From positions 1-64,000 of the forward strand of contig JAAFIB010000003.1 in assembly GCA_013297725.1 (NCBI GenBank): a stretch of 64,000 nucleotides of DNA, written 5' to 3'. This stretch comes from Sphingomonadales bacterium (GTDB lineage: Bacteria > Pseudomonadota > Alphaproteobacteria > Sphingomonadales > Sphingomonadaceae). Positions 13,318-16,226 of this stretch are shown piece after piece (the stretch's first letter is position 1; the number at the start of each line of letters is the position of its first letter). A model generated the notes under the pieces. It did not search any database. It was not told the origin of the DNA and saw nothing but the letters and a program-made list of their open reading frames with translations. Position numbers and translations under genes: made by a program.

Positions 13318-14844
13318 TTAGTTATTGCTTTGCCGATCCAAAAAACGCGGGATGTTGAGGCCAGGTGCAGAGTTGTCCTCTTCTTCCTCGTCATCACCAC
13401 GCGATAATCCGCGCGACAGATTGGTCATCCGTTCAAACAGCGTTCCACCGGTGGTCGAAATACGCGGCGCTGGTGATGACGGTTCGCTTGGCATATCCGA
13501 AGTATCTTCAAATGACCTCTGGAACGATCCCGAATTGTCACCCGCATCCGCCGCAGTTTCCTCTGCAGCAGGTACATCTTCAGCCATATGAACTTCGCCT
13601 AGCTCAAGAAAGTCTCCGCCGTCAGCCTCTTCCGCCTCTTCAGCTTCGGCCTCACCTAAAACAAGGGCATTTTGATCATCTTCGCCGGTTGTTTCTTCCG
13701 CCGGCGTGTAGCCCGTTGGCACTTCGTTCGCTACAAAAGCGTCAGCTTCAGCGGCTTCAGCTTCAGGAGCTTCCACTACCGGAGCCTCAACCACAGGTTC
13801 TGGCGTAAATACCGGTGCAGAAGCGCGTGAAACCTTGTCAAATGCAAATGAACGCGCAGGCTGCGCCGATGGGGATGAATCCTGATCAATACCGGTGGCA
13901 ACCACGGACACGCGGATTTTACCGTTCAGGTTATCATTGAACGCTGAACCCCAGATGATGTTCGCATCGGGATCAACCAGCTCGCGGATATGGTTTGCGG
14001 CCTCGTCAACTTCCATCAGGCGCATGTCTTCGCCGCCAGTGATTGAAATGATAACGCCTTTTGCGCCCTGCATCGACACGCCGTCGAGCAATGGGTTGGC
14101 AATGGCACGTTCGGCAGCTTCAAGAGCACGTCCGTCGCCCTCTGCTTCACCAGTGCCCATCATCGCTTTGCCCATTTCATGCATCACAGAACGCACATCG
14201 GCAAAGTCGAGGTTGATCAGGCCCGGCATAACCATAAGGTCAGTGATCCCGCGCACACCCTGTTGCAGCACTTCGTCAGCAAGCAAGAACGCTTCTTTGA
14301 ACGTTGTGTTCGGGTTAGCGACCAAGAACAGGTTCTGGTTCGGAATAACGATCAACGTGTCGACATGTTCTTGCAGCTCGGCAATTCCTGCTTCGCAAGA
14401 CCGCATCCGCCGCTGTCCTTCAAACAAGAACGGCTTGGTAACAACACCAACAGTCAAAATGTTCATTTCGCGTGCGGCACGGGCGATAACTGGCGCCGCG
14501 CCAGTTCCGGTGCCTCCACCCATGCCCGCAGCGATAAAGCACATATGCGCGCCGCTAAGCGCCTGTTTAACCAGTTCCAATGTTTCTTCAGCAGCGGCAC
14601 GACCGACTTCGGGCCGCGACCCAGCGCCAAGGCCTTGGGTGATATCTGGACCCAGCTGAATGCGGAATTCGGCTGGTGAAGAATTCAACGCCTGTGCATC
14701 AGTATTGGCAACAATGAAGTCGACACCCTCAACCCGGGCATTGATCATGTTGGCAATCGCATTTCCTCCTGCGCCCCCAACACCAATCACTGCAATTTTC
14801 GGCCGAAGTTCATCAACAACCGGTGGTCCAATATTGATGCTCAT
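13318..14844 (-). CDS. ftsZ: Cell division protein FtsZ
   Basis: [11 protein letters not shown] tubulin signature; [15 protein letters not shown]-terminal conserved peptide [10 protein letters not shown]. Confidence 0.98.
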
Positions 14845-14874
14845 GTCTTAGTCGCTCCCTCGCCAACAATTGGC

Positions 14875-14889: not shown

Positions 14890-14907
14890 CTTTCCTTTTG
14901 CATATTT

Positions 14908-14916
14908 TTATCCACA
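14908..14916 (+). promoter_or_regulatory. Perfect DnaA box upstream of ftsZ
   Basis: TTATCCACA, exact match to the DnaA 9-mer consensus. Confidence 0.6.
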
Positions 14917-14929
14917 AAACGACCAAAAG

Positions 14930-14938
14930 TTACCCACA
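14930..14938 (+). promoter_or_regulatory. Second DnaA-box-like 9-mer (one mismatch)
   Basis: TTACCCACA, same orientation, 22 bp from the perfect box. Confidence 0.45.
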
Positions 14939-14969: not shown

Positions 14970-16226
14970 TCAGAAGTTTTCCCGGATAATCTGCAAAATA
15001 CGCGTAATTACACCGGGTTTCGCCCCGGCATGTCCTGGATCATCAACGCCCAAACCCAGCTTAAGATCAACAGGGTTTGACTGTGCATAAATAATCAATC
15101 CTGCCAGAGTCGAAAAGGCTGGGCCGCTATGCGCCTCCGGAAGTCCTAGCAGACCTGTTGGACGTCCAATACGCACTGTGCGGCCAAGTGCACCCTGCAT
15201 ATGATCGGCTAAGCCTTTCAGTTCCGCACCGCCACCTGTCAGAACGACATGATGCTTTCCAGGTGCCGAGAAACCCAGTCCCTTCAACGCTTTGCCGATA
15301 TCGGCAACAAGCGGATCAACGCGTTGGCAAATCACCGAGTTCAATTGCGCACGCGTGATTTTTGGGCGTTCTTGGCCGCTGTTGTCCTCTGGATCGCTTA
15401 CATCCAAAACGTCTTGATGGTCACGCGGGTTTGACTGTGCCGAACCATCGCGGCATTTCAGCCGCTCTGCCTCTGCACGCCGCAAACCAAATGTTGCTGC
15501 GATATCATCTGTAATGTCTGACGCGCCCTGATTTAGAGTGTGCAAACCCACCAGCATACCGCCAACAAAGACTGAAACATTCGTAACAGCAGCGCCCATT
15601 TCCACCAGCGCAACACCCAGTTCGCGTTCTTCGGTTGTTAAACAGGCAAGGCCCGCCGCAAGCGGTGCTGCAACCACCGCCTCAACACCAAGATGCGCTG
15701 CGCGTGCTGTCATATCCAGATTGCGGACAGGGGCAGGTTCAGCAAGCACCACATGAATATCAACGCCCAGCCGGTCAGCATACAGCCCCAACGGGCTAGC
15801 TACGCCGCCAACACCGTCGATGGAATACAAAGTCGGGCTGATATGCAGCGGGGTTTTACCGCGCGGATCAACATTGGCACGCCCCGCCATCAACAGGTCA
15901 TCAATATCAACTTGTTCGATCCTGTCGCCGCCAAGATCAATCTCAGCCGGAGCCAATTGGCTATCCAGCCCGCCTGCAGAGATTCCCAGCCACACGCGTT
16001 CGATGTTGGTCCCTGCAATCCGCTCCGCTTGCTCAACAGCCTGCCGTGCGGATAGTTCGGCTAGCTGAATGTCGGCAACGCAACCCCGCGTTACGCCTTT
16101 GCTTTCGCGCTGTCCGCTGCCCAATACTGTCAGTGTGCCATCATCACCAACACCGGCGATCAGGGCCGATACTTTTGACGAGCCAATATCGAGTGCTGAA
16201 ATAATTTTCTCGAACTTTGCAACCAT
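14970..16226 (-). CDS. ftsA: Cell division protein FtsA
   Basis: ISALDIGSSKVSALIAGV; HHVVLTGGGAELKGL. Confidence 0.96.
   Translation of the reverse strand: MVAKFEKIISALDIGSSKVSALIAGVGDDGTLTVLGSGQRESKGVTRGCVADIQLAELSARQAVEQAERIAGTNIERVWLGISAGGLDSQLAPAEIDLGGDRIEQVDIDDLLMAGRANVDPRGKTPLHISPTLYSIDGVGGVASPLGLYADRLGVDIHVVLAEPAPVRNLDMTARAAHLGVEAVVAAPLAAGLACLTTEERELGVALVEMGAAVTNVSVFVGGMLVGLHTLNQGASDITDDIAATFGLRRAEAERLKCRDGSAQSNPRDHQDVLDVSDPEDNSGQERPKITRAQLNSVICQRVDPLVADIGKALKGLGFSAPGKHHVVLTGGGAELKGLADHMQGALGRTVRIGRPTGLLGLPEAHSGPAFSTLAGLIIYAQSNPVDLKLGLGVDDPGHAGAKPGVITRILQIIRENF

Follow-up and report, generated by a model that had tools for sequence, protein, structure and literature searches.

A DnaA-box position conserved upstream of ftsZ in Sphingomonadaceae points to a possible link between replication and division

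Results

Two DnaA-box-like 9-mers in the ftsA-ftsZ gap

We analysed a DNA stretch of 64,000 nucleotides (hereafter the window) from a genome, G000, that belongs to Sphingorhabdus (Sphingomonadaceae). Its FtsZ shares 91-96% identity with the full-length matches of the genus, and the named relatives in this range are mostly Sphingorhabdus. The ftsA and ftsZ genes are both encoded on the minus strand and are separated by a gap of 125 bp, upstream of the ftsZ ATG at 14844. The features of this region are listed in Table 1.

Table 1. Genes and sequence elements of the ftsA-ftsZ region, in window coordinates
Feature	Position	Strand	Basis
ftsZ, 508 aa	13318..14844	-	Open reading frame; full-length matches in the genus at 91-96% FtsZ identity
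AGGGAG, ftsZ ribosome-binding-like sequence	14855..14860	-	Sequence; AAGGGAG kept in nearest relatives
ATATGC, downstream module element (putative role)	14900..14905	-	Ungapped alignment with nearest species
TTATCCACA, consensus DnaA box without mismatch, found in this genome only, in the putative promoter spacer	14908..14916	+	Exact match
GTAACTTTT, -35-like core overlapping the conserved box (putative promoter role)	14925..14933	-	Aligned to TTAAYTTTT
TTACCCACA, conserved DnaA-box position, degenerate (T4 to C), fused to the putative promoter core	14930..14938	+	Relatives
ftsA, 418 aa	14970..16226	-	Open reading frame and gene order; identified from sequence and position, without family search

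The initial annotation had described the gap as holding an exact DnaA 9-mer and a one-mismatch copy in the same orientation, and the sequence confirmed this description. Compared with the DnaA-box consensus (TTWTNCACA / TTATCCACA), the 9-mer at 14908 is an exact match and the one at 14930 differs only at position 4; their starts are 22 bp apart and the sites span 64-94 bp from the ftsZ ATG. Both 9-mers lie on the plus strand and are thus antisense to ftsZ, an orientation that had not been given earlier. Read in the ftsZ sense, the gap contains TGTGGGTAA starting at -94, followed by TGTGGATAA starting at -72. Since the pair was picked from among many gaps, it is only suggestive when taken alone; the comparison with relatives decides.

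Some other candidates were considered and rejected. MraZ boxes (GTGGG repeats with a 10-bp spacing) do not fit, since here the spacing of the two GTGG motifs is 22 bp. The sequence TTATGCACA, located at 15082-15090 on the minus strand inside the ftsA coding sequence, was not taken as part of the element because the other Sphingorhabdus examined have no DnaA-box match at that place. We also observed an exact TTATCCACA past the right end of the window (G000:C72:64839-64847; L273:1440-1448), between gcrA and a downstream DNA topoisomerase subunit-like gene (parE-like by eye).

Only the 14930 position is conserved within Sphingorhabdus

The region upstream of ftsZ was compared among 44 Sphingorhabdus genomes and 122 other Sphingomonadaceae entries, the latter including 73 genomes drawn so that each genus is represented about once. 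The wider comparison took in genomes from other families, 39 from within the order and 40 from within the class. Within the genus, place and orientation are kept for the 14930 position and not for the 14908 one. At -95 to -97 before ftsZ, 28 of the 44 genomes have TGTGCAAAA. At the same position CCTGTGGGTAACTTTT is present in the genome under study and in G001, G007, G009, G021, G022 and G034, the six relatives in which the 14930 site, TTACCCACA, is identical. Other relatives have TGTGCAAAA or TGTGGAWAA on the same strand and at about equal distance from ftsZ. The changes at this position are mostly within the tolerance of DnaA (TGTGGATAA, TGTGGAAAA and TGTGCAAAA), and a strict match is absent in nine members of the genus (G005, G018, G024, G030, G033, G036, G037, G042 and G043).

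When the seven bases CAAAAAG are taken out of CCTGTGCAAAAAGGGTAATTTT of the sister clade, CCTGTGGGTAATTTT is obtained. The 14930 site is accordingly best read, from this alignment, as the left part of an ancestral box, which an apparent loss of 7 bp has joined to the core element that comes next; we infer a deletion rather than an insertion because the outgroups carry the longer form. In a tree of ftsA and ftsZ, from which the fragment G001 was left out, genomes with the two box states form distinct groups (support 100/99 and 87/98). In this subclade TTACCCACA, with its position-4 mismatch to TTWTNCACA and its overlap with the core, may be a box in the course of decay.

The exact 14908 box is not shared in this way. 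Upstream of ftsZ, TGTGGATAA occurs in this genome alone among the 44 Sphingorhabdus, and its neighbours read TGCCCTGAATT or similar at that place, in the spacer of the module described below. The tandem pair presented by the initial annotation does not hold as a conserved unit, as only the 14930 position is common to relatives. Likewise, of the footprint that it had proposed to look for across Sphingomonadales, the imperfect 14930 site is recovered, and the perfect 14908 box, its main site, is restricted to this genome and lacks the conservation in close relatives whose absence the annotation itself had named as a refutation.

It is quite possible that the perfect box is a functionless chance 9-mer, and that only the conserved position, itself decaying in this subclade, counts. 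Its absence from all other Sphingorhabdus examined would fit such an origin, as would the fact that a reader of the whole window selects the best-looking of many gaps, and TTATNCACA with one mismatch showed no enrichment within the window (33 found versus 38 expected). On the other hand, TTATCCACA has its sole exact copy of the window here and 13 exact copies in the 3.02-Mb genome (8 for the reversed-pattern control), so that only ~0.0005 would be expected per 125-bp gap, and the box arose where an older box was altered. In the favoured reading, the 14908 box is a recent gain, 22 bp off on the same DNA face and inside the putative promoter spacer, where it may make up for the loss of strength of the upstream box or hold transcription down at high DnaA levels.

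The footprint extends across much of Sphingomonadaceae

We counted the motif TGTGNAWAA, in ftsZ sense, upstream of ftsZ, using permuted motifs of the same make-up as the control. It was present in 15 of 28 non-redundant Sphingorhabdus (permuted mean 0.26; opposite strand 0) and in 28 of 105 non-redundant other Sphingomonadaceae (permuted mean 0.61; opposite strand 1). Relatedness among the genomes keeps these counts from being independent, and the control with permuted motifs has it too. In the family set with about one genome per genus, a consensus box in the same ftsZ-sense orientation as here was found in 23 of 73, with 0.26 expected from the background rate of this genome. The start of the box is 87-122 bp before the ATG in 21 of these 23, and most are at 92-102. 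About two thirds of the genera of the family are without a strict match. Among the other families sampled, the motif was found upstream of ftsZ in 0 of the 39 genomes from the order and in 1 of the 40 from the class. The signal is specific in position and orientation and, in this sample, is confined to Sphingomonadaceae.

The box is part of a putative promoter module

Aligned on the core, the module consists of the box (if present), TTAAYTTTT, GTGATTC, ~10 bases, and GTGCA or TTGTGCCACAAG; this order fits the closest genera and much of the family, and other genera only loosely. The TTAAYTTTT core is common to most of the genus and to several genera of the family. The ATATGC of this genome is aligned to TTGTGC/TAGTGC of the relatives, ~17-19 bp past the core. 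In the ftsA-ftsZ gap, a scan for E. coli-type sigma-70 promoters found none, and no full CtrA site (TTAA-N7-TTAA) was seen by eye. From the conservation of the module, the gap is predicted to hold the ftsZ promoter. We also observed that at the downstream end of the module many Sphingomonadaceae carry a TTGTGSCACAAG palindrome, for instance L151, where it lies ~90 bp ahead of the ftsZ start (position 1501). The equivalent place in this genome reads ATATGCAAAAGG.

Being embedded in a module with the strongly conserved TTAAYTTTT, GTGATTC and GTGC, TGTGGAWAA could belong to the promoter or be bound by a different regulator, in which case it would resemble a DnaA box only by coincidence. The whole module also varies together by clade. 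However, the degeneracy of the motif (N at position 5, A/T at position 7) is of the DnaA-box type, permuted motifs of the same make-up fall short, and the aligned oriC boxes of the genus change alike, TTACCCACA included. We consider such a coincidence quite unlikely.

The oriC boxes were found upstream of hemE, the usual origin position in alphaproteobacteria, which we take to be the putative oriC; several aligned DnaA-box-like 9-mers are present there in the genus. One of these aligned boxes reads TTATCCACA in G024 and TTACCCACA in G000, G008 and G009. The DnaA of this genome retains the domain IV signature GGRDHSTV. Because its oriC carries the same 9-mer and domain IV is normal, binding of DnaA at TTACCCACA is plausible, although the T4-to-C change would be expected to lower it. 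The putative oriC of this genome (L277:1209-1427, contig C112) has TTATCCCCA, CTTTCCACA, TTATTCACA and TTACCCACA. Among them, TTATCCCCA occupies the same oriC position in most members of the genus examined and resembles the weak W-box of Caulobacter (TCCCCA, PMC4285127).

DnaA bound upstream of ftsZ might act in more than one way. Away from oriC, DnaA boxes of E. coli serve in DnaA titration or act on its nucleotide state (datA, DARS), and the present sites could likewise titrate DnaA or affect its nucleotide state without any control of ftsZ. We regard this as very improbable, as there are only one or two boxes, with orientation and distance to the ftsZ start fixed. DnaA bound at the conserved site could also repress or modulate ftsZ. 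Both sites overlap the core promoter here, with the 14930 box reaching into the -35-like core and that at 14908 placed in the spacer, so that RNA polymerase would be blocked. In relatives, however, the intact box is located just upstream of the core, a typical activator position that corresponds to class II activation. Both repressor and activator roles of DnaA are on record (PMC8203912), but Caulobacter DnaA activates ftsZ. Repression is therefore an unlikely mode in our estimate.

GANTC sites are mostly lost from the Sphingorhabdus ftsZ promoter

Within the module, GATTC represents a GANTC site, the target of CcrM. In most of the family a GANTC is present in the promoter spacer, at the place that the 14908 box occupies in this genome, whose ftsZ promoter has no GANTC. 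In the 160 bp that precede the ATG, GANTC was found in 59 of 73 other family genomes versus 4 of 44 Sphingorhabdus. GcrA is present in 45/45 genomes of the genus and a RAMA domain (CcrM type) in 42/45. In another family of the order (f8; L231, L232, L243, L244, L246-L248 and L270), tandem AAAAAACGACTCGGA-like repeats and GAATC were observed upstream of ftsZ, with up to ~5 GANTC sites in each promoter.

In Caulobacter, a GANTC between -35 and -10 activates ftsZ once methylated (PMC3708114), and rewiring of GcrA/CcrM has been reported among Caulobacterales (PMC7987155). Because GcrA and CcrM are kept and methylated GANTC activates ftsZ in Caulobacter, the loss of GANTC in Sphingorhabdus is a candidate case of rewiring. 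We suggest, very tentatively, that the Sphingorhabdus promoter lost its CcrM site and kept the DnaA box, such that the timing of FtsZ would depend on DnaA and not on GcrA/CcrM, and that in this genome a second DnaA box, of consensus type, replaces the lost methylation site inside the promoter.

Discussion

The above comparisons favour, with some confidence, a DnaA-responsive ftsZ promoter of the Caulobacter kind, in which DnaA at 14930-14938 would activate ftsZ; here occupancy, promoter identity, activation and timing are all predictions from comparative analysis. The ftsA-ftsZ gap would hold the promoter of ftsZ, whose -35-like core directly adjoins a DnaA box or is partly covered by it. DnaA at this box would turn on ftsZ transcription, probably through contact with RNA polymerase, and FtsZ synthesis would thereby follow the initiation of replication. 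In the best reading, the conserved site does most of the work.

The initial annotation had invoked the activation of ftsZ by DnaA in Caulobacter as precedent, and this precedent is real (PMC8203912, PMC3193534). Its suggestion of a DnaA-ftsZ link in this lineage gains from the box position kept across much of Sphingomonadaceae, but does not gain from the perfect box at 14908. Judged from the footprint, the synthesis of FtsZ may be coupled here to DNA replication, as in Caulobacter. The system would be of a known kind (DnaA-ftsZ), with a possible lineage-specific twist on top. A position- and orientation-specific footprint would extend the DnaA-ftsZ connection of Caulobacter to a different, large alphaproteobacterial family. 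It also offers a natural comparison, among promoters with GANTC and a DnaA box, with the box only, or with neither, that could separate the two routes coupling replication to division.

Comparison with known systems

The ftsZ gene of Caulobacter crescentus is directly activated by DnaA from a promoter with two DnaA boxes (PMC3193534). As in that promoter (PMC3193534, PMC8203912, PMC3708114), DnaA boxes are located upstream of ftsZ in Sphingomonadaceae, most of the family has GANTC in the promoter region, and GcrA and CcrM are present. Unlike in Caulobacter, the ftsZ promoters of Sphingorhabdus are mostly without GANTC, and there is one box position at a fixed distance and orientation, with an extra spacer box in this genome; control of ftsZ by DnaA is read here from sequence. 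When cell-cycle genes of alphaproteobacteria were scanned comparatively using a DnaA matrix from Caulobacter, DnaA sites showed little conservation from taxon to taxon (PMC2877005).

DnaA-box 9-mers in the ftsQ-ftsA-ftsZ region are also a feature of E. coli ftsQA. As far as the secondary account goes, the E. coli boxes upstream of ftsZ lie within genes and have no control over ftsZ (PMC8203912, citing Smith et al. 1996), whereas the Sphingomonadaceae site is intergenic and kept across genera. The E. coli case counts against the present reading, as a warning that such boxes may have no effect. The ftsZ gap shares its 9-mer types, TTACCCACA included, with the oriC of the genus upstream of hemE; however, the boxes of oriC are several and point both ways, and the gap has one or two in a single orientation.
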